NCBI RefSeq assembly: GCF_903970965.1
Contig: NZ_CAJCKW010000013.1
Coordinates: 1 to 64,000 of the forward strand
Length of the DNA: 64,000 nt
Direction: 5' to 3'
Origin: Aureimonas sp. ME7
Lineage (GTDB): Bacteria > Pseudomonadota > Alphaproteobacteria > Rhizobiales > Rhizobiaceae
Shown: in pieces, positions 21,515-33,731 of the stretch
Layout: each line of letters begins with the position of its first letter
Position numbering within the stretch: the stretch's first letter is position 1
The notes under the pieces: model-generated
Database searches by the model: none
Seen by the model: the letters and a program-made list of their open reading frames with translations, nothing else
Told to the model about the DNA's origin: nothing
Made by a program: the position numbers and the translations under genes

Positions 21515-22069
21515 TCAGCCGATGCGCTCCCACTCGCCGTGCTGCTCCTGCGACTGGCGGGCGAAGAAACGGTAGGGCGTCCGGTTCCAAAGCCGGACGG
21601 CGGGGGACAGGCTGTCGAGGACGTAGTCGCCTTCGCTGGTGCGAACGGTGAGAACCGTGTGGCCGGCCTCGGAGAAGCGCGGCTGCACCACCGTCAGGAG
21701 GAGGGTCGAGGCCGGGAAGCCGAGCGCGATGAGGCTCTTCTTCTTGGCGATGGCGATGTCCTCGCAATCCCCGCTGCCGCCCGCTGCGCGCCAGACGTCG
21801 CCCTTGGACGGTGCGTCGTCGACCTGATGGACGCGGGCGTTGATCCGCGCGTTGACGTCCCGCATCGCGGCGAGGCGGGCCGGGGTGAGTTCGACCTTCT
21901 TCTGCGGTCCGCTCGATGCGCACAGCCGCGCGTCGCGCTCGCAAAATTCGTAGAAGGCGGGCGGGGCGAAAGCGCTACCGTTGGTCGACATGGCCGTCAT
22001 GGACGAGCCGGTGGCCGAGCAGCCGGTCAGACATGCGCTGCCGAGCAGCATCCAGACGATTGGGCGCAA
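21515..22069 (-). CDS. Transglutaminase-like cysteine peptidase lipoprotein (BTLCP/LapG-like)
   Basis: 184 aa. The lipobox LTGC (residues 14-17) follows a short hydrophobic signal, so it is a lipoprotein. The catalytic triad of bacterial transglutaminase-like cysteine peptidases is visible: Cys102 in GDCED, His137 in GHTVLTV and Asp152 in YVLDSL. LapG, the best-known member, clips the N-terminal anchor of type I-secreted adhesins. This copy is shorter than LapG and is lipid-anchored. It stands next to a type I secretion locus (25229-32756), which makes a processing role attractive, but no LapD-like receptor is in the window. Confidence 0.85.
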   Translation of the reverse strand: MRPIVWMLLGSACLTGCSATGSSMTAMSTNGSAFAPPAFYEFCERDARLCASSGPQKKVELTPARLAAMRDVNARINARVHQVDDAPSKGDVWRAAGGSGDCEDIAIAKKKSLIALGFPASTLLLTVVQPRFSEAGHTVLTVRTSEGDYVLDSLSPAVRLWNRTPYRFFARQSQEQHGEWERIG

Positions 22070-22218: not shown

Positions 22219-23187
22219 TCAGGAACCGCCGGCACCTCCGGCTCCGCCCGAACCGCCGCCGCCCGAGCCGCCTCCACTGCCGCCCGCGCCGCCCGCGCCG
22301 CTCGCACCGCCGCCGTTGCCGCCCGAACCGCCGGAGCCACCGCCGCCCGAACTCCCGCTGCCCGAGCCGCCGCCGCCGGATCCGGCCGAGCCACCGGAGC
22401 CGTTGGCACCGCCGCCGTTGCCTCCGTTGCCGCCCGAGCCGCCGCCCGAACTACCGCTTCCCGAGCCGCCGCCGCCGGACCCAGCCGAGCCGCCCGAGCC
22501 GCTGGCGCCTCCGCCGTTGCCACCATTACCGCCCGAGCCGCCGTTGCCGGAACCGCCGCCGCCCGTTCCTCCGCCGCCGCCGCCGGCACCCCCTCCGTTG
22601 CCACCGTTTCCACCGTTACCCCCGCCATGGTTTCCGCCGCCGGGGTTCCCACCCCCAGGGTTTCCGCCGCCAGGGTTGCCCCCGCCTGGATTGCCTCCCC
22701 CGGGGCTCCCCCCGCCCGGATTGCCCCCTCCAGGGCTTCCGCCACCCGGGTTGTTGTCACCCGGATTGTTGCCGCCGTCGCCGGTGTTGCCGCCGTTGCC
22801 GGGATTGTTTCCACCGTTGCCGGTGTTCCCGCCCGTGTTACCTCCCGTGTTGCCGTTGCCCCGCGAGGCCTCGCGGCCGAGGCCGCGCCGCCCCTCGTTG
22901 GAGTTGCGCGTGCCGTTGGTTTCCTGGCCGGGAACCGTGCGCGCGATCAGGCTCGTGGTGATCGGGGGGCATTGCGCGACCTGGGCCGGGGTCAGGATGC
23001 GGCTCCGGTTGGCGGCCACGCAGCAGAGCGCGAAGTTGCCCCGCGTCAGCGGCTGGCATTGCGCGGCGCTCAAGGTGGGGCGAAGGCTCTGCTGCGCCCT
23101 CGCCGGGCTGGTCCCGCCGGACAAGGCGGTGGACACAAGAAGAACCGTGCCGAAGGTCGTGACGAGTTTGTCGAGATACAGGTACAT
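22219..23187 (-). CDS. Secreted Gly-rich protein with Cys-containing N-terminal domain
   Basis: 322 aa. ATG 23185-23187 follows GGAGGAAGAA. Residues 1-31 are a signal peptide (FGTVLLVSTALSGGTSPARA). Residues 32-90 form a small domain with Cys44, Cys55, Cys56 and Cys73. The rest is low complexity: nine N/S-P-G-G-G pentapeptides (about 146-190), then Gly/Ser/Asn stretches in which a unit of about 34 residues is duplicated (about 227-295). No known family. Such proteins are usually exported surface or matrix components. Placement beside a cysteine peptidase and a type I secretion locus supports a surface role. The strongly biased composition gives long open frames on the other strand, which I do not regard as genes. 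Confidence 0.75.
   Translation of the reverse strand: MYLYLDKLVTTFGTVLLVSTALSGGTSPARAQQSLRPTLSAAQCQPLTRGNFALCCVAANRSRILTPAQVAQCPPITTSLIARTVPGQETNGTRNSNEGRRGLGREASRGNGNTGGNTGGNTGNGGNNPGNGGNTGDGGNNPGDNNPGGGSPGGGNPGGGSPGGGNPGGGNPGGGNPGGGNPGGGNHGGGNGGNGGNGGGAGGGGGGTGGGGSGNGGSGGNGGNGGGASGSGGSAGSGGGGSGSGSSGGGSGGNGGNGGGANGSGGSAGSGGGGSGSGSSGGGGSGGSGGNGGGASGAGGAGGSGGGSGGGGSGGAGGAGGS
22303..22509 (-). repeat. Tandem duplication of about 105 bp inside the Gly-rich gene
   Basis: Two adjacent copies of a Gly/Ser unit (SGSGGSAGSGGGGSGSGSSG in one, NGSGGSAGSGGGGSGSGSSG in the other) encode residues about 227-260 and 261-295. The high similarity at both protein and DNA level points to recent slippage or unequal recombination. 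Confidence 0.6.
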
Positions 23188-23359
23188 TTCTTCCTCCAGT
23201 GGGAAAAAATGCGCTCCCGTCCCCTTTTTGGTGCGCGGATGACATGCGCCGGATCGGCTGCACGGTGGAAACCATTTCATATCCGCTTCGCGCACGCAAT
23301 CGCTCGAAGGATGGATGGACGTGGAAAAACAACGCGCTAGTTGAGCCGGCCTGCCGTTT

Positions 23360-23854
23360 TCAATGCGGGAAGCGATAGCGCGTCACGATCGACATGATGG
23401 CCTCGTTCAACTGGCGAATGGCTTCGATCGAGGCGGCGATGTTGCGCATCTCGGCCCCGTCCAACGGGTCCACCTTGCCGTACTTGATCGAGTCCTTGGC
23501 GTCGAAGATGCGCATCAGCTGGGTGCTCGCCCGGCTGCCGGTCTCGTCGAACGAATAGATGCAGTGGCTGTACTTGTTGCGCAGCTTGCCTTGCTTGAGC
23601 AACTGGTCGGTGATGGCCAGGACGTCCTTGCGGCAGGGCGCCGAGGTGGCCGACATCTTGGCGAGGCGCTCCACGAGGTCGATGCGCGCGCGCGTCGTGT
23701 TCAAGGTGAGGAAGACGACGATCGCCGTTTCCTTGTCCACCTTCGCCAGGCCTGCGATCAGATAGATCAGGAGGCTCTCGGTATTGGTCCAGGTATAGTT
23801 GAGCTGGCCGACCAGGAGAAGGATGTCCTGCAGACGGGGGGCAGGCGCGCTCAT
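23360..23854 (-). CDS. HEPN-like helical protein coupled to a LuxR-type regulator
   Basis: 164 aa, predicted all-helical, no signal. It contains RNKYSHC (Arg92, His97), which fits the R-x4-6-H motif of HEPN proteins, many of which are RNases or RNA-binding regulators; an N follows the R as in active HEPN families. Other features are VERLAKM and a C-terminal helix (IAASIEAIRQLNEAIMSI). Its ATG overlaps the TGA of the regulator gene (ATGA, 23851-23854), so the two are translated together. I do not recognise a named family; the HEPN call is from the motif and the helical character only. Confidence 0.65.
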   Translation of the reverse strand: MSAPAPRLQDILLLVGQLNYTWTNTESLLIYLIAGLAKVDKETAIVVFLTLNTTRARIDLVERLAKMSATSAPCRKDVLAITDQLLKQGKLRNKYSHCIYSFDETGSRASTQLMRIFDAKDSIKYGKVDPLDGAEMRNIAASIEAIRQLNEAIMSIVTRYRFPH

Positions 23855-24621
23855 TGCCGTTGGGGCAGGAGGAAGCCGCCCTCGATCGTTCTCGGCGCCG
23901 CCGAGGTGTGGTCGCGGAAAAGGCCGGCGGCCTGCGTCCGGTTGTGCACGCCGAGCTTGGTGATGATGTTGTGGAGATGGATCTTGATCGTGTTCTCCGA
24001 CAGGTTGAGGCGGCTGGCGATCAGCTTGTTCTGAAGCCCGCGCGACACGAGTTCCAGGATCTCGAACTCGCGTTCGGTCAGCGCGCCGATCCGGCCCCGC
24101 CGTCGAAGCTCGATCGCGCCGGGTTCGGCCACGGGCGGGGGCGCCTCGCCATGGGACGCGCGAAGCGAGAGGATCATTGCGGGCGGGACATAGCACCCTC
24201 CCTGAAGGATGACCTGCAGCACGGAAAGCCAAAGGTCGAGCTTCAGATCCATCGGCAGGACGCCGCGAACGAAGGAAAGGGACAGGAGCTCCAGAAGAGG
24301 CAGGGCCGGGCAGGTTTCGGCCTGAAGAATGGCGAACACCGCCGTCGGATGCGCCTGGTGAAGAAGCGACATCTGGGCTCTCGGCTCCAGAAGCAGCGAG
24401 CTTTCCACCAGCATGAAGGCGACCGCCGCGCCCGATCCAGCATGGGCGGCATGAAGGTCGCCTGCCTGGATGACTTCGATCCAGGGGAACTGCCGCTCGA
24501 TCGCATGGACGAGGGAATCGGACAATTCGCTCGAGGTCGCCACCATTAAGGTGCGCCGGCTTCGCGTCGCATTGCTCGCGATCTGTTCCGAAGACGAACG
24601 GGAATCGACAGGGGCCCTCAT
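23851..24621 (-). CDS. LuxR/CsgD-like regulator with pseudo-receiver domain
   Basis: 256 aa. The C-terminal HTH is a clear LuxR/GerE domain (about 176-235: LTEREFEILELVSRGLQNKL, IASRLNLSENTIKIHLHNI). The N-terminal half resembles a response-regulator fold (RTLMVATSS, then YVPPAMIL), but the phospho-acceptor position reads LVESSLL, with Glu instead of Asp near residue 73. This fits CsgD-type unphosphorylated regulators that control matrix or surface proteins. It reads away from the secretion operon, with a 607-bp AT-rich region between them. Confidence 0.85.
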   Translation of the reverse strand: MRAPVDSRSSSEQIASNATRSRRTLMVATSSELSDSLVHAIERQFPWIEVIQAGDLHAAHAGSGAAVAFMLVESSLLLEPRAQMSLLHQAHPTAVFAILQAETCPALPLLELLSLSFVRGVLPMDLKLDLWLSVLQVILQGGCYVPPAMILSLRASHGEAPPPVAEPGAIELRRRGRIGALTEREFEILELVSRGLQNKLIASRLNLSENTIKIHLHNIITKLGVHNRTQAAGLFRDHTSAAPRTIEGGFLLPQRQ

Positions 24622-25228
24622 GACGCGTTTCCTATCTGCTGCAGTATCGGAAGCTGAAAATCCTGATCTTACACCCGTAAGTTATAGCGGCTTTGCGTTA
24701 TACGATATAATCCGAATGGACTATCATAGCCCATGAAACACCCTTCTATGTTTCATGAGGATTTCGTTCGACCTCGATATGGCGACGAATATTGGCTGGA
24801 TCTGCCGTAAGACATCTTGCGTTGCGATATAACCGTTTTGCGATGCCGTAGATGCGCGCTCGTGAGCGCCGCGCTCCAACTTGGACTAGATCGAATTGCT
24901 AACTTTTCATTAACGTCAATTCCAAGCATCGTCCTCTCGTTCCGCAGTAGAAGTCCGATCTCTCCCGCTTCGCAAAGTTCTAGGCGACCGCACCGGTTGG
25001 GCGGCGCGGAAGCAAACTCGTGCGTCGTTCGAGACGGGAAGCCTTCGCTGCTCAGTCGAGGAGTCAACATCCTGAAGCAACGCATGCGGACCTTTTGCGT
25101 CGTTCGTCCCCTAGGCCGACCGGTCCGATCGCATGAAGCAGACACGTAGCAACGAAACCCTGGCGATGCTGACGGCCACGTCAAAGATGAAAGTGGCTGG
25201 GTTGTCGCCCTCTTGAAGGAAGACGACG
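24622..25228. other. 607-bp AT-rich divergent control region
   Basis: No credible gene. The base composition drops sharply compared with all neighbours, with stretches such as TATACGATATAATCC near 24699-24713. It contains the palindrome at 24732-24757. It separates the LuxR/HEPN pair (minus) from the secretion operon (plus), so it should hold both promoters and the binding sites of the LuxR regulator. A small RNA is possible but nothing shows one. Confidence 0.6.
24732..24757. promoter_or_regulatory. Perfect 9-bp palindromic operator candidate
   Basis: CATGAAACA (24732-24740), 8-base spacer, TGTTTCATG (24749-24757). It lies about 111 bp upstream of the LuxR start and about 470 bp before the Asn/Gly-rich gene. 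Spacing and symmetry suit a dimeric HTH protein such as the adjacent LuxR regulator. Confidence 0.55.
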
Positions 25229-27034
25229 ATGGAACGTTACGGCTACACCGATCACGGCAGCATTCCGGACGGCGACGACTGCGAGCCGACCCCTCCGGTG
25301 ATCGTGCATCCCCCCCATCCCGATCCGGTTCACCCGCAGCCCCCGATCGATCCGCCGACAGGCGACGATTGCGATACGGACGACAATTCCAACTCGAACA
25401 CCAACGGCAACGCGAACGGCAATGCCAACGGAAACGAGAACGGCAACGTCAACGGCAATGAGAACGGGAACATCAACGGCAACCTGAACGGCAACGTCAA
25501 CGGGAATGCCAACGCCAACGAGAACTGCAACTCGAGCGTGAACGATGCGACCAACCTGGCGACCAACGTCGCCAAGAACGTCGCCGTCAACGACGTGCAC
25601 ACCGACGTGTCCACGCATGTGTCGACCAATATCGACCTGTCCGGGCTCGATCTCGCGCCTTCCGACAACGACTTCGCCGATATCGACATCGGCAGCGGCG
25701 CCAACGTCAACGGTCTCTTCAACGTCCAGATCGGCGACGTTCTGGAAGGGGCGACCTTCGGCGACGGCAACAACTCGACCAACGTCCTCAGCCAGAACCT
25801 CAACCTGCAGGACAACGACCAGCTCCACGACTTCAGCCTCACCGGCACGTTAAACTCGTCGGGCAGCGTCGATGGCGGCGAAGCCACGTCGGGCGACGGT
25901 ATCCATGCCGGCGGCTCAGGTGCCGGCAGCGGCGGTACCGCCTATTCTACGGGCGGCAACGGCGCGAACGGCGCCAACGGGCAGGGCGCCAACGGGCAGG
26001 GGGGCAACGGCGGCGGCACCCAGGCCGGCTCCACGGCCAACGCCTTCGGCCTCGGCGGATACGCCTCCAGCGCCGGCGGCGCGGGCGGATCGGGCACGGG
26101 CGGCACGGCGACGGGCGGCACGGGCACCGGTGGTGCGGGCGGTGCGGGCGCGGCCGGCACGGGCCTCGGCCTCGGGCTGGGCCTCGCGGTCGGCCTCGGT
26201 CTCGGCGGCCATGCCAGTGGCGGCACGAGCGGCGACAGCGGCAATGCCGGCCACGGCGGCAACACGTCGACGGGCGGCAACGATTCGGGCAGCGTCCACA
26301 CCCATGGCGGCAGCGGCGGCGACGCGCTCGGCGGCGACGGGATCGACAGCTATATCCCGCCCTATGGTTCCTTCGTGAATCTCGGCAAGGGCGGCGGTGC
26401 CGGCAGCGATGGTGACGGCGGCGGTGCCGGCGGCTCCAACACGGGCGGGGCCGGGACCATCGGCTCCACCGACGGCGACGGCGGCGGCTCGGGCGGCACC
26501 GGGGCGGCCAACGGCGGCGCGGCGGGCTACGGCCATGGCGCGGCGACGGCCGGCGGCAACGGCGAAGGCTACGGGGTCGGCGGTGCCGGCGGCCATGGCG
26601 GAGCGGCCAATGGCGGGGCGGCCTATTCCGGCCACGGCATCGGCGGTGCCGCCGACGGCGGAGCGGCAACGGTCGGCGATGCCACCAACACGGCGCTCAG
26701 CGGCGCCTGGGCGGACGGGGCCAACGGCGGTGCCGGCCACGGCGGCTGGGGCCTGGGCGGAGACGGGGGCGCCGGTGGCGCCGGCGGCTGGGCTTCCATC
26801 GGCGACGGTGGGGCCGGCGGCGATGCGGCGGGAAGCTGGGGCTCGGGCAACGGGGCCGAATCGACCTTCGAAGCGGTGTCCACCGCGACGGCCGACGCCC
26901 TGCAGGACTTCTCGCACTCCTTCAGCCCGTCCTTCGTCATGGGGGCCAACCTCCAGACCAACTCGGTCGACATGACCACGGTCGGACACGACTACGACTA
27001 CTCCAACACGATCGACGCCCACGACATCAACTGA
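25229..27034 (+). CDS. Asn/Gly-rich repeat protein, putative type I-secreted matrix protein
   Basis: 601 aa, ATG 25229 with GGAAG upstream. Residues 1-50 are Pro/Asp-rich with two DDC motifs. Residues 53-101 carry Asn at every second position, mostly as N-G-N-x. Residues 102-210 form a Asn/Asp/Val-rich segment (NLATNVAKNVAVNDVHTDV). Residues 215-545 are Gly-rich (more like PGRS or silk-type repeats than RTX; no GGxGxDxUx nonapeptide). The last 55 residues are hydrophobic/polar and may carry a C-terminal secretion signal (SPSFVMGANLQTNSVDMTTV). No N-terminal signal peptide, as expected for a type I substrate. First gene of the run leading to the ABC and HlyD genes. No family recognised. Confidence 0.8.
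   Translation: MERYGYTDHGSIPDGDDCEPTPPVIVHPPHPDPVHPQPPIDPPTGDDCDTDDNSNSNTNGNANGNANGNENGNVNGNENGNINGNLNGNVNGNANANENCNSSVNDATNLATNVAKNVAVNDVHTDVSTHVSTNIDLSGLDLAPSDNDFADIDIGSGANVNGLFNVQIGDVLEGATFGDGNNSTNVLSQNLNLQDNDQLHDFSLTGTLNSSGSVDGGEATSGDGIHAGGSGAGSGGTAYSTGGNGANGANGQGANGQGGNGGGTQAGSTANAFGLGGYASSAGGAGGSGTGGTATGGTGTGGAGGAGAAGTGLGLGLGLAVGLGLGGHASGGTSGDSGNAGHGGNTSTGGNDSGSVHTHGGSGGDALGGDGIDSYIPPYGSFVNLGKGGGAGSDGDGGGAGGSNTGGAGTIGSTDGDGGGSGGTGAANGGAAGYGHGAATAGGNGEGYGVGGAGGHGGAANGGAAYSGHGIGGAADGGAATVGDATNTALSGAWADGANGGAGHGGWGLGGDGGAGGAGGWASIGDGGAGGDAAGSWGSGNGAESTFEAVSTATADALQDFSHSFSPSFVMGANLQTNSVDMTTVGHDYDYSNTIDAHDIN
25385..25531 (+). repeat. Alternating Asn-X coding repeat
   Basis: Codons for residues 53-101 of the Asn/Gly-rich protein. 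Asn occurs at all 25 odd positions and Gly alternates with a variable residue at the even ones (N-G-N-A, N-G-N-E, N-G-N-V, N-G-N-I, N-G-N-L). At the DNA level this is a degenerate 12-bp tandem repeat with the core AACGGCAA. Confidence 0.85.
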
Positions 27035-27059
27035 TCGTCCGGCATCGACCCGACGCGAA

Positions 27060-27088
27060 GGGGCTGCGCGCGCCATGCGCGCAGCCCC
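27060..27088 (+). terminator. Strong hairpin between the two secreted-protein genes
   Basis: Perfect 12-bp stem GGGGCTGCGCGC (27060-27071) / complement (27077-27088), 5-base loop. No T-run follows, so it is more likely an attenuator or mRNA-stabilising hairpin than a full terminator. It could let the repeat protein be made in excess of the downstream secretion genes. Confidence 0.55.
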
Positions 27089-27140
27089 GCCATTCCATCC
27101 CCATCGCCGGGTGCGACGGGGGTGATCCGGGGGAAACGCC

Positions 27141-29192
27141 ATGATCCTCGACAGCACCAGCGAAGCGATCGCCCACTTCATCGGCCTCTTCAACATGGCG
27201 ATCGAAGAAGGGCGGATGCGCAAGGCCTTCCTCGAGTTCCAAGCCGTACCCGACCGCGAGCACATCCCCGATCCCGACGAAGCCGTCACCCCACGCGTCA
27301 ACACGTCCTACGACTTCGATGACTTCTATCCCCGCCTCCAATACGACCCGTCCGGCTGGTCGGTGGAGGGCGGCCCGAGAGCCCGGCTCTCGATGGACCT
27401 GCCGAGCGTGCAGGTGCCCCCGCTCGATCTCACGCGCCATCTCGCCCTCGACGCGCCCGAGCAGGCGCATCCTTTCATCCGCGGGCTCGGCGGCAGCGCG
27501 GTGGGCGTGATCGAACCGCCCGGCTCCGCGATCGCGATCGTGGTGCAGACGATCCAACTCCACGACGACGATTTCTTGAGCGCCGGCAACCACGGGCTGA
27601 CGCTCGTCCATTCGATGCTGGATTCGGCGGGCGAACTCGATCACCTTCTAGTGGAGGCGAGCGACCTGTCCCCGCTCGTCGACCTGTCGCTCTCAACCGA
27701 AAGCGTTCCCGCCCTGATCGACACGATCGAGCGGGCGCGGGACGCGCTCGCCGATTTCCAGCCGAGGCAAGCCGACGGCCTGACGACCTTCGTCGAGCGG
27801 GCGCACGTGCTGGACGGCATCTACGTCAACGGCGTCAAGGCCGACGCGGTGCCGGACTACGATCACTACCGGCCGCTGGAGACCGCGGAGGACCCTGCGT
27901 CCGATGCCCCCCGGAACGACGGCTTCGAGCGCAACGCCGGCCACACCGCCCATAGTGATGCGATGCGCACCGAGGGCCTCAGCCACACCTCCGATATGGA
28001 GATCACGGCCGGCGACAATCTCCTCCTCAACGAGGTGCGCCTGTCCAACGAATGGCTGGCTTCTGCCGTGATGGCGGTCGGCGGCGACCATATCGAGCTC
28101 AATGCGATCATCCAGTACAACGCCTGGACCGATATCGACTCCATCGGCTCGGATTTGGGCAGTTGGGCTCAGGACAAGGGCGACCCGACGCTCGGCTTCA
28201 ACATCGCCCAGTTCAAGCGGATCGACCCCTCGCACGACGCGAAACTCGCCGCTCCCGACCCCCATCCGAGCTTTCCCACAGCCTGGGCGGTCACCGAGAT
28301 CAAAGGCGATCTCGTGATCCTCAACTGGATCGAGCAATTCTCCTTCCTGGTGGACAACGACATCACGGTGATGTCGGCCTTCGGCTCCAAGGTCACCGCG
28401 GTGCTCGGTGACAACGCCGCTTCCAACCAGGTCTCGCTTCAGGAACTCGGACTCTACTACGACCTGATCGTGGTCGGCGGCAACGTCTACGACGTCAACC
28501 TGATCCAGCAGATGAACCTTCTGATGGACAACGATCTCGTGGCCGGGGCGAAGGGATTCCAGACGAGCGGCGACGGGTCAGTCGCCAGCCACGGCAATCT
28601 TTTGTGGAACCAGGCCAACATCGTCCAAGTCGGGTCGGCGGACCGTTTCTCGTCGATGCCCGAAGCCTATGCCAAGGCCCTGGCCGATTTCCAGGGCGGC
28701 AAGCATAGCCTGCCTTCGGGTGTTCTATCCGACCCGGCTTTCGCCAACCTTGCGGGCCTTCGCGTCCTCTACATCTCCGGCGACGTCGTGAACCTGCAAT
28801 ACGTGAAGCAGGTCAACGTTCTCGGCGACGGCGACCAAGTGGTCGCCGCGCGCAACCAGATGGAAAGCCATTCGGACGCCCATTGGACCGTCTCCACCGG
28901 CGCCAACACGCTGGTCAACGTGGCGAGCGTCGTCGATGTCGACGGCTACGCCAAGACCTATGTCGGCGGCCACGCCTATTCCGACGAAATGCTGGTCCAA
29001 GCCGAGTTCGTGCCGAACGACCCGTGGGCGCATGCACGCGACCCGCAGGCGCTCGTGTCCGAAGCCGTGGTGTTTCTCCACGACGACATGATGGGCGGAA
29101 GCGGCGATGCTCATGCCGGCCATCCCACGCCCTACGGGCACGCACCCGCCCACGCACCCCATCCCGACGTGATGCACACGATGCTGGCTTGA
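27141..29192 (+). CDS. Repeat-containing putative type I secretion substrate/accessory protein
   Basis: 683 aa, no N-terminal signal peptide. Residues 1-35 are a helical start (SEAIAHFIGLFNMAIEEGRM). From about 287 on I see at least five copies of a weak repeat, roughly [VI]xGDxxxLNxIxQxNxLxDND: ITAGDNLLLNEVRLSNEW (288-305), VGGDHIELNAIIQYNAW (313-329), IKGDLVILNWIEQFSFLVDN (387-406), VGGNVYDVNLIQQMNLLMDN (445-464), ISGDVVNLQYVKQVNVLGDG (545-564). The C-terminus is His/Pro-rich (HPTPYGHAPAHAPHP). Proteins of this kind beside T1SS genes are annotated in alphaproteobacteria as type I secretion proteins, with function unknown. It lies 13 bp before the ABC gene, so a substrate or partner role is likely. 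Confidence 0.75.
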   Translation: MILDSTSEAIAHFIGLFNMAIEEGRMRKAFLEFQAVPDREHIPDPDEAVTPRVNTSYDFDDFYPRLQYDPSGWSVEGGPRARLSMDLPSVQVPPLDLTRHLALDAPEQAHPFIRGLGGSAVGVIEPPGSAIAIVVQTIQLHDDDFLSAGNHGLTLVHSMLDSAGELDHLLVEASDLSPLVDLSLSTESVPALIDTIERARDALADFQPRQADGLTTFVERAHVLDGIYVNGVKADAVPDYDHYRPLETAEDPASDAPRNDGFERNAGHTAHSDAMRTEGLSHTSDMEITAGDNLLLNEVRLSNEWLASAVMAVGGDHIELNAIIQYNAWTDIDSIGSDLGSWAQDKGDPTLGFNIAQFKRIDPSHDAKLAAPDPHPSFPTAWAVTEIKGDLVILNWIEQFSFLVDNDITVMSAFGSKVTAVLGDNAASNQVSLQELGLYYDLIVVGGNVYDVNLIQQMNLLMDNDLVAGAKGFQTSGDGSVASHGNLLWNQANIVQVGSADRFSSMPEAYAKALADFQGGKHSLPSGVLSDPAFANLAGLRVLYISGDVVNLQYVKQVNVLGDGDQVVAARNQMESHSDAHWTVSTGANTLVNVASVVDVDGYAKTYVGGHAYSDEMLVQAEFVPNDPWAHARDPQALVSEAVVFLHDDMMGGSGDAHAGHPTPYGHAPAHAPHPDVMHTMLA

Positions 29193-29205
29193 AACGAGGA
29201 CTGAG

Positions 29206-31404
29206 ATGACCGACGACCGGGGGAACGGCTGGCATCTGGCCGAGGACGACATCATGGACCCGCCGAGCGAAAGCTCGGGCGAGGCCGCGCCTGAGCCGGC
29301 GGCGACGCCGAGCCGCTCCTCCGCGCTGCGCGCCCAGCGAGACAAGGAGCGGGCGATCGAGCGCTCGCTGGAAGACATCGCCATGACCGTGGCGCGCCTT
29401 CGCCAGGCCGCGGCCGCCGAAGACAAGGCCGCGGCCGCGCCGGAAGCCGCCGAGGCGCCCGCCATGCGCTCGCCCGAGGAACCCGCGGCCGAGGCGCCGA
29501 GCGCCGACATGAAGACCGCCAAGGCCGTGCCCGGCATGGTGACGATCGACGCCGACACCGGACCCTTGAAGGCGCCCGAGCGCAAGACCGGGGGCGGCGG
29601 GCCGGTTGATGGCGAAGGCGGTGGCGGCCGACGCGGCGGCGGCGGGGGAGGGGGCGGCGGCAACGGCGTCTTCCACAAGCGTCTCGGGCCGGTGGACTTC
29701 AACGCCTCGCTCGAAAAGGCGGCCAAGGCCGTCAAGCGCAACCTTTTGGCCGTGATCCTCTTCACGCTGGCCACCAACATCCTGGTTCTGGCCGTCCCGA
29801 TCTACCTGTTCCAGATCTCGGACCGCGTCCTCACCTCGCGCTCGATCGACACGCTGGTCATGCTGACGCTGGTGATCGTCGGCGCGGTGATCTTCCAGGC
29901 GATCTTCGACGCCATCCGACGCCTGATCCTGATGCGCACGGCCGTCGAGGTCGCCGCCCAGCTCGGTGCGCCGATCCTCAGCGCCGCCGCGCGCGCTTCG
30001 CTGCACGGAAACGGGCGCGAATACCAGATCCTCGGCGATCTCCAGCAGCTGCGCTCGTTTCTGACAGGCGGCACGCTGATGGCCTTTCTCGACGCGCCGA
30101 TGGCGCCTTTATTCGTCGTCGCGATCTTCCTGATCCACCCCCATCTCGGCTTCATCGTCGTCGGCACGGCGCTGGTGCTCCTCCTTCTCACCGTTCTCAA
30201 CCAGCGGGCGACGGAGGCGCCCTTCGGCGAGGCGAACGCGGCGCAGACCAAGGCCAACCTCCATCTCGATTCGATGACGCGCAACTCCCAGATCATCAAC
30301 GCGCTGGCGATGATCCCCGAGGCCGTGCAGATCTGGGGCCGCGACACGGCCGGCTCGCTGAAGGCGCAGGTCGTCGCGCAGGACCGCAACGTCATGTTCG
30401 CCGCGCTCTCCAAGGGCTTTCGCCTTCTGACGCAGGTCGGCATGCTCGGCTGGGGCTCGTTCCTCTCGCTGGAAGGGCACCTGACGGGCGGCATGGTGAT
30501 CGCGTCGTCGGTGATCGCCGGCCGCGCGCTCGCCCCGATCGAGGGCGCGATCGAGGGCTGGAACCACTTCGTCCAGTCGCAGGCCGCCTATGGCCGGATC
30601 TCAGCGCTTCTGAAGAACTCGCCGCTTAACTTCGAGCGCCTCAACCTGCCGCGCCCGGAAGGCCGGCTCGACGTCGAGCGCCTCCTGTTCGTGCCCCAGG
30701 GCACCAAGCGCGTCGTCCTGAACGGTCTCAGCTTCCAACTCCAGCCCGGCGACTCTCTCGCCATCATCGGCAATTCGGGCGCCGGCAAGACGACGCTCGG
30801 CAAGATGCTGGTGGGCTCGATCCTGCCCACATCCGGCGCCGTACGGCTCGACCTCATGGACCTGCGCAACTGGGACCAGCGCCAGTTCGGCGAGAACATC
30901 GGCTACCTGCCGCAGGACGTGCAGCTCTTTCCCGCCTCGATCAAGGCCAACATCGCCCGCATGCGCGAGGACGCGTCCGACGAGGACATCTATCAGGCGG
31001 CGATGCTGGCCGACGTCCACGAGATGATCTCGGGGCTGGCGCAGGGCTACGAGACGTTCGTCGCCGCCGACGGCGCGCCCCTGTCGGGCGGCCAGAAGCA
31101 GCGCATCGCGCTGGCGCGCGCCTTCTTCGGCAATCCGCGCTTCGTGGTGCTCGACGAGCCGAACTCCAACCTCGACAGCGCAGGCGACGCCGCCCTCGGC
31201 CGCGCGCTGGCCCACGCCAAATCGCAGCGCATCACGGTGGTCACGATCACCCAGCGCCCCGCGCTCCTTCAGAGCGTCGACAAGATCCTCGTCCTCAACA
31301 ACGGCACGATCGGCCTCTTCGGCATGCGCCAGGACGTTCTGAAAGCCTTGTCGGAGCGCGGCTTCAACATCGACGGCGGCGGGCCGTTCGGGCAGATCCA
31401 GTAG
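29206..31404 (+). CDS. Type I secretion ABC transporter (permease-ATPase), PrsD-like, with long N-terminal extension
   Basis: 732 aa, about 150 longer than PrsD/PrtD. Residues 1-165 are an added region: charged helices (LRAQRDKERAIERSLEDIAM), an Ala/Glu-rich linker and a Gly tract (RRGGGGGGGGGNG); no C39 peptidase domain. Six membrane helices begin near 180 (LLAVILFTLATNILVLAVPI). The ATPase has Walker A GNSGAGKTT, signature LSGGQKQR and Walker B FVVLDEPNSNLD. The H-switch position reads ITQRPA, with Gln683 instead of His. It would export the upstream proteins through HlyD and a TolC-type channel; no tolC is present in the window. Confidence 0.93.
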   Translation: MTDDRGNGWHLAEDDIMDPPSESSGEAAPEPAATPSRSSALRAQRDKERAIERSLEDIAMTVARLRQAAAAEDKAAAAPEAAEAPAMRSPEEPAAEAPSADMKTAKAVPGMVTIDADTGPLKAPERKTGGGGPVDGEGGGGRRGGGGGGGGGNGVFHKRLGPVDFNASLEKAAKAVKRNLLAVILFTLATNILVLAVPIYLFQISDRVLTSRSIDTLVMLTLVIVGAVIFQAIFDAIRRLILMRTAVEVAAQLGAPILSAAARASLHGNGREYQILGDLQQLRSFLTGGTLMAFLDAPMAPLFVVAIFLIHPHLGFIVVGTALVLLLLTVLNQRATEAPFGEANAAQTKANLHLDSMTRNSQIINALAMIPEAVQIWGRDTAGSLKAQVVAQDRNVMFAALSKGFRLLTQVGMLGWGSFLSLEGHLTGGMVIASSVIAGRALAPIEGAIEGWNHFVQSQAAYGRISALLKNSPLNFERLNLPRPEGRLDVERLLFVPQGTKRVVLNGLSFQLQPGDSLAIIGNSGAGKTTLGKMLVGSILPTSGAVRLDLMDLRNWDQRQFGENIGYLPQDVQLFPASIKANIARMREDASDEDIYQAAMLADVHEMISGLAQGYETFVAADGAPLSGGQKQRIALARAFFGNPRFVVLDEPNSNLDSAGDAALGRALAHAKSQRITVVTITQRPALLQSVDKILVLNNGTIGLFGMRQDVLKALSERGFNIDGGGPFGQIQ

Positions 31405-31415
31405 GGAAAACGGGC

Positions 31416-32756
31416 ATGAGTTCCGATATCGCCAAGGTCCACGACATCGAATGGTTCGCCGAAGTGCCCCGGTCGATCCGCAAGCCGGTCTGGATCGGGC
31501 TTGGCCTGCTTCTCCTCGTGTTCGGGGGCTTCGGCACCTGGGCCTTCACGGCGCCGCTGGCCGCCGCCATCGTCGCGCCCGGCTCCTTCGTCGCCACGGG
31601 TCAGAACAAGATCGTGCAGCATCTGGAGGGCGGCATCATCAAGTCGCTTCTCGTCAGCGAGGGCGACCACGTGGTCGAGGGTCAGCCGCTCGTCAAGCTG
31701 GACGAGACCTCCGCGCTCACCAACGACCGACAGCTCTTCCTGCGCCGCGCCCGGCTGGAGGCCGTGGTCGCGCGTCTCACGGCGGAGGCGCACGGAGCCG
31801 AAACCATCGCCTGGCCCGCCATCGTCGACAAGAACCGGGGCGACGCGGACGTCGCGGAGATCATCGAAAGCCAGGACGTCAACTTCCAGTCTTCGCTCGG
31901 CAAGCTGAAGAGTGACGTCACCCTGTTCCAGCAGAACATCGACTCCCTCGATTTCCGCATCCGCGGCTACGAACTGCAGTCGAACTCGCTGACCCGGCAA
32001 CTCGGCCTCCTCAACGAGGAGTACCAGGGCAAGACGACGCTTCTGAAGATGGGGCTCCTGCGCGGCACCGAGATCAAGACGATCCAGCGCGCGATCGCCG
32101 ACGCGGAAGGCCAGGTCGGGCGCCTCGATTCGGAAGCCGCCGAGACCAAGGCCCAGCAGACGCGCTACGATCAGCAGATCGACCAGGCGCGCCGAACCTA
32201 CCAGCAGGCAGCCCTGGACGAACTCCAAACGGCGGAAACCGAGCTCGACACCATTCGCGAGCAGTCGCGCCAGGCCGAAAGCGTCCTGAAGCGCACGACG
32301 ATCGAGGCGCCCGTCACCGGCACGGTGGTGCGCATGTTCTACCACACCTCGGGGGGCGTCATCGAGAGCGGCAAGCAGATCCTCGAGATCCTGCCCTCCG
32401 ACGTGCCGCTGATCCTGGAGGTGCAGGTGCCGCGTACCGACATCGACAACGTGCGCGTCGGCGAGCACGCGACCGTGCGCCTGACCGCGCTCAACCAGCG
32501 CATCACGCCGGTTCTCAACGGCGAGGTGTTCTACGTCTCGGCCGACGCGATCCCCGATACGACGCATATGGACGGGCGCGAGGTCTATGTGGCGCGCGTC
32601 AAGCTCCCGGTCTCGGAGATCGCCCGCGTGCCCGGCTTCTCGCCGACCCCCGGCATGCCCGCCGAGATCCTGATCCAGACGGCCAAGCGTACCTTCTTCG
32701 AATACATCTCGAAACCCGTGCGCGACTCGATGGCCCGGGCCTTTTCGGAAAACTGA
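31416..32756 (+). CDS. HlyD-family periplasmic adaptor of the type I secretion system (PrsE-like)
   Basis: 446 aa. One N-terminal membrane helix (about 29-50, LGLLLLVFGGFGTWAF), then the lipoyl-like half (VQHLEGGIIKSLLVSEGDHV), a long coiled-coil hairpin (about 150-300) and the beta-barrel (IEAPVTGTVVRMFYHTSGGV, LNQRITPVLNGEVFYVSADA). It bridges the ABC protein and the outer-membrane channel. It starts 11 bp after the ABC gene, in one operon, and a terminator follows at 32771. Confidence 0.95.
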   Translation: MSSDIAKVHDIEWFAEVPRSIRKPVWIGLGLLLLVFGGFGTWAFTAPLAAAIVAPGSFVATGQNKIVQHLEGGIIKSLLVSEGDHVVEGQPLVKLDETSALTNDRQLFLRRARLEAVVARLTAEAHGAETIAWPAIVDKNRGDADVAEIIESQDVNFQSSLGKLKSDVTLFQQNIDSLDFRIRGYELQSNSLTRQLGLLNEEYQGKTTLLKMGLLRGTEIKTIQRAIADAEGQVGRLDSEAAETKAQQTRYDQQIDQARRTYQQAALDELQTAETELDTIREQSRQAESVLKRTTIEAPVTGTVVRMFYHTSGGVIESGKQILEILPSDVPLILEVQVPRTDIDNVRVGEHATVRLTALNQRITPVLNGEVFYVSADAIPDTTHMDGREVYVARVKLPVSEIARVPGFSPTPGMPAEILIQTAKRTFFEYISKPVRDSMARAFSEN

Positions 32757-32770
32757 AGCCTTGCGCTGGC

Positions 32771-32805
32771 AAGGGCTCCGATCTCCCGGACGGGATCGGA
32801 GCCTT
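32771..32805. terminator. Terminator after the secretion operon
   Basis: GGCTCCGATC (32774-32783) pairs with GATCGGAGCC (32794-32803), flanked by AAG and TT, with a further inner CCCG/CGGG pairing. It lies between the HlyD stop and the stop of the convergent TonB-domain gene, so it may serve both. Confidence 0.75.
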
Positions 32806-32819
32806 CCGGCTGCCTAGCC

Positions 32820-33731
32820 TCATTCGGGCATCACGCTCGTGCCTTGCACGATACGCCCGATGATGCGCCGCGCCGAATCCGCTTCATCGTCCGCCGCCAT
32901 GCAAATCAGCGAGACCGTTCCTTCCGGTCGGTCGTAGAACAGGTTGAAGGTGATCCATCCGTCATCCGTCGGCTGGTCCCTTTCCCGGCTCTCGATCGTG
33001 ACCAACCGGGCGCCGTCGTGGTCCGAAACGCTCGTCGCCACGACATCGTAACCGAGCTCGCGCATGGCATCGGTTTCGCGCGCGGCTGCGGCTTCGATAT
33101 TGGCAGGCTCGTTCAATGCGGCCTGATCCGGCCGTACCGTCTTCGCCCGCTGTTCCATCGTCAGGTTGCAGATCCGGGCCGGCTGTGCCAAATCCCCATC
33201 GGCCTTTAGTCCGTCGGCGGAGATGTCCACCAGGAGATTGCCGGAATCGTCTTCCTTCGGCGTCTGGACGGAAAGGGGCGCTGGAAGCTCGACGCGCAGG
33301 CCCGACGCCGCGTCCACGAACAAGCGAACCGGACGAGCGGGATCGTTGGCCGGGAAGCGGAAGACGAAGGGGGCGACCAGCGTCACCGTCTCGCTGGTCA
33401 TGTCCGGAGTAAAGGGTGGAATGTCGTCCGCCGTGCGCGCCATGCGCAGCGCCGCCTCGTCGAGCACGGACGCCCCGGAGGTGCGTCGAAGCGTTGCGCT
33501 CCGCACCGACCCGTCCCGATTCACCGAGATCTCGACGCGGGCGGTTGGGTCGCCGCCGATCCCTGCGAAACCCGCGAGATCGGGATAGGGGGTGTTGATG
33601 GCCGTGCGCGCGGCGCGGGCCCACTCCGCCTTCGACATGGGCGGCTTGGGCTTGTCCTCGGCCATTGCCTGTTGGGAGCCGACGAGAACGACGCCGACGA
33701 GGAGGCCGTGCCAAAGGCTGGCAAGGGGCAT
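32820..33731 (-). CDS. Periplasmic protein with TonB C-terminal-like domain
   Basis: 303 aa, ATG 33729-33731 behind GGAGG. Signal peptide at 1-24 (LLVGVVLVGSQQAMA). Residues about 40-130 read as a TonB C-terminal domain (ARVEISVNRDGSVRSATLRR, SGASVLDEAALRMAR, FVFRFP). The rest, with two Cys in a CNL... and a CMAADDE stretch, is unfamiliar. Real TonB has an N-terminal membrane anchor and Pro-rich spacer, both absent here, so this is not an energy transducer but a periplasmic relative. Function unknown. Confidence 0.7.
   Translation of the reverse strand: MPLASLWHGLLVGVVLVGSQQAMAEDKPKPPMSKAEWARAARTAINTPYPDLAGFAGIGGDPTARVEISVNRDGSVRSATLRRTSGASVLDEAALRMARTADDIPPFTPDMTSETVTLVAPFVFRFPANDPARPVRLFVDAASGLRVELPAPLSVQTPKEDDSGNLLVDISADGLKADGDLAQPARICNLTMEQRAKTVRPDQAALNEPANIEAAAARETDAMRELGYDVVATSVSDHDGARLVTIESRERDQPTDDGWITFNLFYDRPEGTVSLICMAADDEADSARRIIGRIVQGTSVMPE

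Follow-up and report, generated by a model that had tools for sequence, protein, structure and literature searches.

In FapC-type functional amyloids, each imperfect repeat forms one layer of a Greek-key cross-β structure. FapB and FapC are described as nucleator and major subunit, with imperfect repeats, conserved Asn, Gln, and Gly residues, and highly variable linker lengths (PMC12392863, PMC12822426), and the second source also covers the curli repeat motif and the nucleator role of CsgB (PMC12822426). Type I secretion systems (T1SS) export RTX proteins by means of a C-terminal signal that stays uncleaved; theoretical isoelectric points of ~4.0-4.6 are given for RTX proteases, and S-layer RTX proteins are acidic (PMC3034196). 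The rhizobial type I system PrsDE is assigned a role in the biofilm matrix (PMC9298526). Here, we describe a T1SS operon of the alphaproteobacterium Aureimonas sp. ME7 that encodes a 683-aa repeat protein, P0001, and an upstream partner, P0002. The operon lies in a 64,000-nucleotide stretch of DNA, the window (contig NZ_CAJCKW010000013.1, positions 1 to 64,000). The new element is a motif common to these two co-encoded proteins.

The locus resembles RTX T1SS proteins and adhesins, in their general features (PMC3034196), in its T1SS operon, acidity, repeated Asp motif, and a candidate C-terminal signal in P0001. It differs in that the P0001 unit comprises at least ~45 residues built on Asn, Gln, and DxD, the motif is common to two neighboring proteins, and P0002 lacks such a C-terminal end. 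For the RTX nonapeptide (GGxGxDxxx), no Pfam family was found up to E 1 in the window's P0001 and P0002 and none of RTX type in 62 P0001-family members, the homologue scan having covered the P0001 family and not P0002 homologues. The repeats of P0001 follow an Asn-x-Φ-x-Gln-like logic as in curli CsgA and CsgB, but P0001 adjoins T1SS genes and its repeats are longer and carry DxD; the Pfam curlin repeat had no match in P0001, P0002, or the 62 family members. With Fap, P0001 and P0002 have in common imperfect repeats with conserved Asn, Gln, and Gly and variable spacing, and FapC was the sole row in VIA comparisons (Z 3.3, rmsd 3.7, 84 aligned; Z 2.3, rmsd 4.8, 78 aligned), whose lists hold just 62 and 61 chains, so that families outside them may still match. 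Unlike Fap, however, the VIA Z is low, there is no sequence match, and T1SS genes stand in place of a Fap exporter. PrsDE with its Rap substrates is likewise a case of rhizobial type I export, but Rap proteins have cadherin-like (Ra/CHDL) domains, whereas P0001 and P0002 match no Pfam family. Judged by sequence, then, P0001 and P0002 are not members of curli or Fap, and the likeness is one of design.

Repeat units of P0001 and the β signature in both proteins

The genes of the operon and the features discussed below are as follows.

25229-27034, + strand: P0002, a Gly/Asn-rich acidic partner of 601 aa, with homologues in the loci compared
25775-25828, + strand: β signature of P0002, QNLNLQDND at 25793-25819, Q189
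26924-26998, + strand: tentative α-like stretch near the P0002 C terminus, GANLQTNSVDMTTVG at 26942-26986
27060-27088, + strand: conserved stem-loop between P0002 and P0001, with a 13-bp stem and 3-nt loop and without a T run
27141-29192, + strand: P0001, 683-aa repeat protein, without a Pfam family and with no NCBIfam match above cut-off
27147-27242, + strand: conserved N-terminal helix of P0001, core EAIAHFIGLF, from alignments and model
27516-27581, + strand: β0, a lone β half-repeat of P0001 (residues 126-147), containing QTIQLHDDD
27996-28148, + strand: unit 1 of P0001, α1 (286-313) and β1 (314-336)
28176-28370, + strand: unit 2, degenerate α2 (~346-361, by eye), an insertion, and β2 (388-410)
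28392-28544, + strand: unit 3, α3 (418-445) and β3 (446-468)
28575-28844, + strand: unit 4, α4 (479-498), a helical insertion of ~40 residues, and β4 (539-568)
28884-29021, + strand: unit 5, α5 (582-608) and degenerate β5 (609-627, without DxD)
29025-29189, + strand: low-confidence C-terminal tail of P0001 with the end D-x-Φ...L-[AGS], a candidate T1SS signal
29206-31404, + strand: T1SS ABC transporter of PrtD type, N-terminally extended, TIGR01842 above cut-off
29533-29574, + strand: GMVTIDADTGPLKA motif in the N-terminal extension of the ABC transporter
31416-32756, + strand: HlyD-type membrane fusion protein, TIGR01843 above cut-off

We find that P0001 contains an internal repeat above chance, at the place where an earlier note on this DNA had proposed one. 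The best ungapped self-match, residues 284-340 against 416-472, scores 65, which none of 100 shuffles reaches (largest 53), and the ten best self-matches sum to 418, compared with at most 339 in 100 shuffles. Self-alignment, the check that the note had named, gave significant self-similarity at the profile level as well: four off-diagonal matches were obtained with 62 sequences (E 2.6e-11 to 1.5e-9), the strongest pairing residues 416-632 with 284-469, and the other registers were similar. Read from the alignments, the repeat unit is an alternating pair, in which an α half (GxNxxxNxA) is followed by a β half (GDxxxxNxIxQxNxLxDxD). Five such pairs span residues 284-627 (27990-29021), with α2 recognized by eye as degenerate and β5, at 609-627, likewise seen by eye to lack DxD.

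The pattern described previously, GD...LN.I.Q.N.L.DND, is therefore present as the β half, but the real unit is larger, an α half standing before the β halves. Strict β copies occur at Q136, Q325, Q399, Q457, and Q557; at least five copies had been placed within residues 288-564, where four of the strict ones lie, the fifth, Q136, being outside that interval. The irregular spacing that had been remarked on holds, and arises from insertions inside units 2 and 4, as judged by eye from the predicted strands. The DxD pairs at 142/144, 405/407, 463/465, and 563/565 are invariant in 12 divergent P0001 members; among 62 members, D463 is conserved in at least 90% and the remaining Asp residues of these pairs are invariant. 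In β0, Q136, D142, and D144 are invariant in both sets. Of 90 homologues, 88 have a [HR]FIG-type motif close to the N terminus.

The β signature also occurs in the upstream neighbor P0002 (Q189), a result that goes beyond the earlier note. The P0002 homologues read are 183-1006 aa long and mostly Gly-rich, with Asn or Gln tracts. All 85 homologues tested, a set that excludes open reading frames (ORFs) truncated by the start of a locus, carry Q-x3-Φ-x-D-x-D (shuffles: mean 5.2, maximum 11). Each of 94 P0001 homologues has the same signature three to six times, whereas none of 92 ABC and 85 HlyD proteins has it. In profile comparisons, the P0002 core aligned with β0 at a score of 28.9, compared with at most 24.8 for 100 column-permuted pieces; these permutations form a second set, the first null being invalid since β0 lay outside the permuted region. 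Further alignments of the core were to β3 (24.8), β2 (17.9), β1 (17.7), a position off-register before β4 (13.9), and β4 (13.6). We regard the β link between P0002 and P0001, as a statement about their sequences, as firm because the exact signature carries it.

The C terminus of P0002 aligned with α3, including the VGG that follows it, at a score of 24.9 (permuted pieces, at most 21.3), and 1 of 150 permuted P0001 profiles scored higher (30.6). A simple α pattern, written as a regular expression, was found within the last 90 residues of 75 of the 85 P0002 homologues (shuffles, at most 8). This points tentatively to a relationship between the α-like P0002 end and the α halves of P0001.

Beyond these motifs, database searches returned little. 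The window's P0001 and P0002 matched zero Pfam families up to E 1, and a Pfam scan of 62 P0001-family members gave four unrelated families, each in one or two members (best E 0.0042). NCBIfam produced just two matches to P0001, both far under cut-off, and three FliH models far under their cut-offs over the Asn-rich part of P0002. Searches of PDB sequences with P0001 returned a single row each, at E 1.3 and 0.15. In the open-license literature searched, as listings and the starts of abstracts, we found no description of the P0001/P0002 gene pair, which is not a claim of its absence from print.

Conservation of the operon and predicted properties of its products

A scan of species genomes yielded 288 candidate P0001 relatives; the 80 best of them make up the loci compared here. 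BLAST detected a homologue of the window's ABC transporter behind the P0001 gene in 80 of 80, and the link between the repeat protein and one type of T1SS that the earlier note had drawn thus holds throughout. An HlyD homologue is present in 79, the remaining locus ending inside the transporter gene, and a P0002 homologue lies directly upstream of P0001 in 78; of the two without it, one contig starts ~300 bases before P0001, and the other (L092) has only short ORFs. Plasmids of Shinella, Paracoccus, Sulfitobacter, Cereibacter, and Qingshengfaniella are annotated with the same gene order, and their other strand encodes a response regulator or a regulator of LuxR type. Three loci, L001 (the window itself), L010 (a frameshift), and L092, enter some of our homologue counts and are left out of others.

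The occurrence of the P0001 repeat domain is patchy and alphaproteobacterial. It was found in 67 of 297 genomes sampled from the family, 21 of 249 from the order, 2 of 385 from the class, and 8 of 349 from the phylum; the genome of the window is counted and the samples overlap, and all eight matches in the phylum sample belong to the same class or closer. A first search for relatives with whole P0001 had matched 6 of 61 genomes, five of them from the window's own genus, itself included. Among plasmids, 32 records contain the repeat domain, for the most part from rhizobia and Rhodobacterales, and a search of IMG/VR for P0001 relatives returned nothing. P0001 homologues are annotated as hypothetical proteins and, in Sulfitobacter, as "type I secretion protein ATPase".

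A conserved stem-loop stands between the P0002 and P0001 genes. Its CTGCGC/GCGCAG core is common to 64 of 83 loci; the hairpin search always returns a best stem, so that its 83 of 83 carries little weight. Measured against ten single-base shuffles per locus, the median folding z is -3.0, with values below -2 in 64 of 79 loci, compared with a median of -0.1 and 0 of 40 below -2 for controls inside the P0001 gene. Compensatory changes affect 8 of 11 stem pairs across 39 intergenic regions, which were hand-chosen from 74 and omit, among others, three (L053, L056, and L071) in which the best stem has another sequence. Two terminator-like sites were called, both outside the interval between the two genes, a σ70-like promoter was not found, and Rfam gave nothing up to E 0.1 across 24600-33000. 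The stem-loop is likely to be a stabilizer or attenuator that raises P0002 abundance.

P0001 and P0002 are both strongly acidic, with net charges of -8.9 and -9.3 per 100 residues in the window and -9.2 to -16.5 in four other loci, where 42 neighboring proteins have a median of -0.2 and a lowest value of -7.0. Of 90 P0001 homologues, 74, L010 among them, end in D-x-Φ...L-[AGS] (shuffled tails, at most 4), and this end is absent from all 89 ABC and 83 HlyD proteins. It is a candidate C-terminal type I secretion signal. Cys is rare, being absent from 78 of 87 P0002 homologues and having a median of 1 in P0001. The earlier note had left P0001 between a substrate and a chaperone class; the charge, -8.9 against the neighbors' median of -0.2, and the C-terminal end in 74 of 90 suit a substrate better than a chaperone.

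Structure prediction covered P0001, whole and as the repeat domain. AlphaFold modeled the whole protein (62-row alignment) with a mean pLDDT of 71.8 and a pTM of 0.68, and the repeat domain alone with 78.6 and 0.75. In the whole model, each unit provides a 10- to 11-residue strand (α), a short strand, and a 12- to 22-residue strand (β); the domain-only model broadly agrees but differs in unit 3, where the α strand has 5 residues at low confidence. Residues 34-121, 257-282, and 640-683 are of low confidence in the whole model, and pLDDT in the C-terminal tail is mostly below 55. The AlphaFold check suggested in the note returned repeated β-strands, in keeping with the repeat units that had been expected; a beta-solenoid was not shown, as known folds gave no significant match (Foldseek E at least 0.016, TM-scores at most 0.12). 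A fold search of BFVD likewise gave no match at E <= 0.001. P0001 is thus predicted to have repeated β-strands.

Readings of the gene pair

We tentatively favor, at somewhat less than an even chance, a reading in which P0001 and P0002 are co-exported, non-RTX type I substrates that stack into an extracellular matrix or fiber, P0001 serving as scaffold or nucleator and P0002 as subunit. The type I system encoded directly downstream would export the two proteins together. Outside the cell, their shared Asn/Gln/Asp β-repeats would fold, Ca2+ probably being bound by the DxD pairs, and the folded repeats would then stack into the matrix or fiber. P0001 would contribute its five αβ units as scaffold or nucleator; the more abundant subunit would be P0002, which has a single β signature, an α-like end, and a Gly-rich stretch that varies in length. 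The sugar-nucleotide and glycosyltransferase genes around the operon on two Sulfitobacter plasmids were counted in favor of this reading, and may point to an extracellular matrix island. The repeat itself, the β signature of both proteins, the constant gene order, the acidity, the β-strands of the models, and the conservation of the stem-loop are seen in the data and speak for the reading; secretion, Ca2+ binding, stoichiometry, co-assembly, and a matrix function are what we infer from them. If the reading is true, an extracellular protein polymer that lacks RTX repeats and needs neither curli nor Fap exporters has gone unrecognized in soil, plant-associated, and marine alphaproteobacteria. 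With the shared signature, the gene pair, and the conserved stem-loop, the reading can be tested directly.

A more specific form of this reading, which we consider doubtful, is a two-component type I fiber. Here, P0001 would be a five-unit nucleator, and single-unit P0002 subunits, each with an internal β half and a C-terminal α half, would complete one another's units head to tail, displaying the variable Gly-rich loops. The mRNA stem-loop would set the ratio of subunit to nucleator, and a TIEGDxGP-type motif in the disordered N terminus of the transporter would dock the repeats before export. Were this so, a principle like that of curli and Fap would have arisen on type I secretion.

Several observations weigh against the matrix or fiber reading. 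The alignments of the P0002 core to β2, β1, and β4 score inside the permuted range, and hhalign probabilities for P0002-P0001 matches are low, the best being 15%. With hidden Markov models (HMMs) of single half-repeats, 12 of 90 P0002 entries scored above all shuffles for the β half and 1 of 90 for the α half; the 90 entries include L001, L010, and L092, the 12 include the ORF of the L010 frameshift, which extends across P0001, the single α entry is that same ORF, the α-like stretch of the window was missed, and one unrelated ORF beat its shuffles both times. Such single-half HMMs test P0002 weakly, and the profile-profile comparison, with its permuted columns, is more sensitive. No P0002 homologue (0 of 87) has the D-x-Φ...L-[AGS] end, so that no common export signal is visible and P0002 would therefore use another signal or another export route. 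The window's transporter proteins contain 0 Cys and its P0002 three, so that low Cys content is not diagnostic. Foldseek found no PDB match to the P0001 models at E <= 0.001 (best E 0.016). The leading rows, all non-significant, were CsgA, tapirin, FapC, SufB/D, adhesins, and pectate lyases, most of them solenoid-type structures, with TM-scores of at most 0.12, which is no superposition; CsgA, the top row, had E 0.4 with whole P0001 and E 0.016 with the repeat domain, the latter at TM 0.06. In five other loci outside Sulfitobacter, the annotated neighbors are mostly not polysaccharide genes. Finally, Ca2+ binding is proposed from the DxD pairs, and the role of the stem-loop and the secretion of either protein are putative.

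An apparent natural fusion of P0002 and P0001, a 1517-aa coding sequence of Rhodobacter sp. CZR27 (L010, 7544-12097), which would have been strong evidence that the two act jointly, was dropped, again to the detriment of the matrix or fiber reading. Comparison with Cereibacter places the last ~115 residues of the CZR27 P0002 homologue in a different frame, and the fusion is therefore a frameshift artifact of two genes.

Rather unlikely, in our view, is that P0001 acts as a T1SS adhesin, either free-standing or bound to the cell, whose repeats are β-stacked, and P0002 as a separate Gly-rich matrix or coat protein, the two having a transporter and an old motif in common without co-assembling. 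The linkage and acidity data fit this equally well, adhesins are among the weak Foldseek matches of P0001, and the polysaccharide genes flanking the operon on the two Sulfitobacter plasmids agree with it too. However, the β signature is kept in all P0002 homologues tested, even at 183 aa, and would be needless in a mere neighbor.

It is improbable that P0001 instead stays behind as an accessory of the T1SS, namely as a chaperone or docking factor in the cytosol or periplasm whose repeats mimic that of P0002 and keep this Gly-rich protein export-competent. Such a role would suit the steady length of P0001 (647-714 aa in 89 homologues) beside the 183-1006 aa of P0002, a gene placed between P0002 and the transporter with the stem-loop setting P0002 apart, and the lack of the P0001 C-terminal motif in P0002. 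It sits poorly with a P0001 that is as acidic as P0002, has large low-confidence parts, and keeps a conserved C-terminal end (74 of 90) behind a flexible tail. It is very improbable that P0001, with a β-helix-like body, is secreted to bind or act enzymatically on polysaccharide in a matrix that contains P0002. Weak Foldseek matches to pectate lyases, polygalacturonases, and RbmB, a lyase of Vibrio, speak for it, but the invariant residues of P0001 are largely Gly, Asn, Gln, and Asp dispersed across the repeats and not at one site, and no Pfam enzyme family was found for P0001 or recurs in 62 homologues.

The transporter extension and neighboring genes

The N-terminal extensions of the ABC homologues comprise ~80-700 residues before the core, lengths that derive from longest ORFs and are thus upper bounds. 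In 77 of 90 homologues, the extension has a TIEGDxGPIK-type motif (at most 2 after shuffling); the pattern was loosened after viewing the misses of a first version that matched 36 of 90, and the count thus depends on the data themselves. In relatives, the β2 half starts with a stretch that the motif resembles (IEGDL), and docking of the repeats by the transporter is therefore suggested as a speculation. In the window, the GMVTIDADTGPLKA-like motif precedes the TIGR01842 match and is followed by a Gly-rich stretch; it is a possible substrate docking site.

Two further features lie on the other strand beside the operon.

23851-24621, - strand: LuxR-type regulator with a GerE domain, divergent from the operon
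23360-24232, - strand: hypD, an ORF with a conserved protein of ~160 aa, only the C-terminal part of the ORF being conserved

No Pfam family was found for hypD. Its homologues occur in 70 of the 80 loci, 65 on the - strand and 5 on the + strand, which is that of the operon.

On two Sulfitobacter plasmids, sugar-nucleotide and glycosyltransferase genes lie on both sides of the operon (L093, 3232-8006 and 18858-24841; L094, 293-5076 and 16289-21092). The name "type I secretion protein ATPase" given to the P0001 homologues of these plasmids (L093, 12001-14109; L094, 9080-11188) is evidently wrong.

Farther from the operon, the window encodes a transglutaminase-like cysteine proteinase (Peptidase_C93/BTLCP) at 21515-22069 on the - strand, of the family of LapG, the releaser of T1SS adhesins. 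A homologue is present in 23 of 92 loci, not every locus extending that far. At 22219-23295, also on the - strand, lies a gene for a Gly-rich protein without a Pfam family, which has a signal-peptide-like start, as judged by eye, and BLAST matches in 6 of 92 loci.

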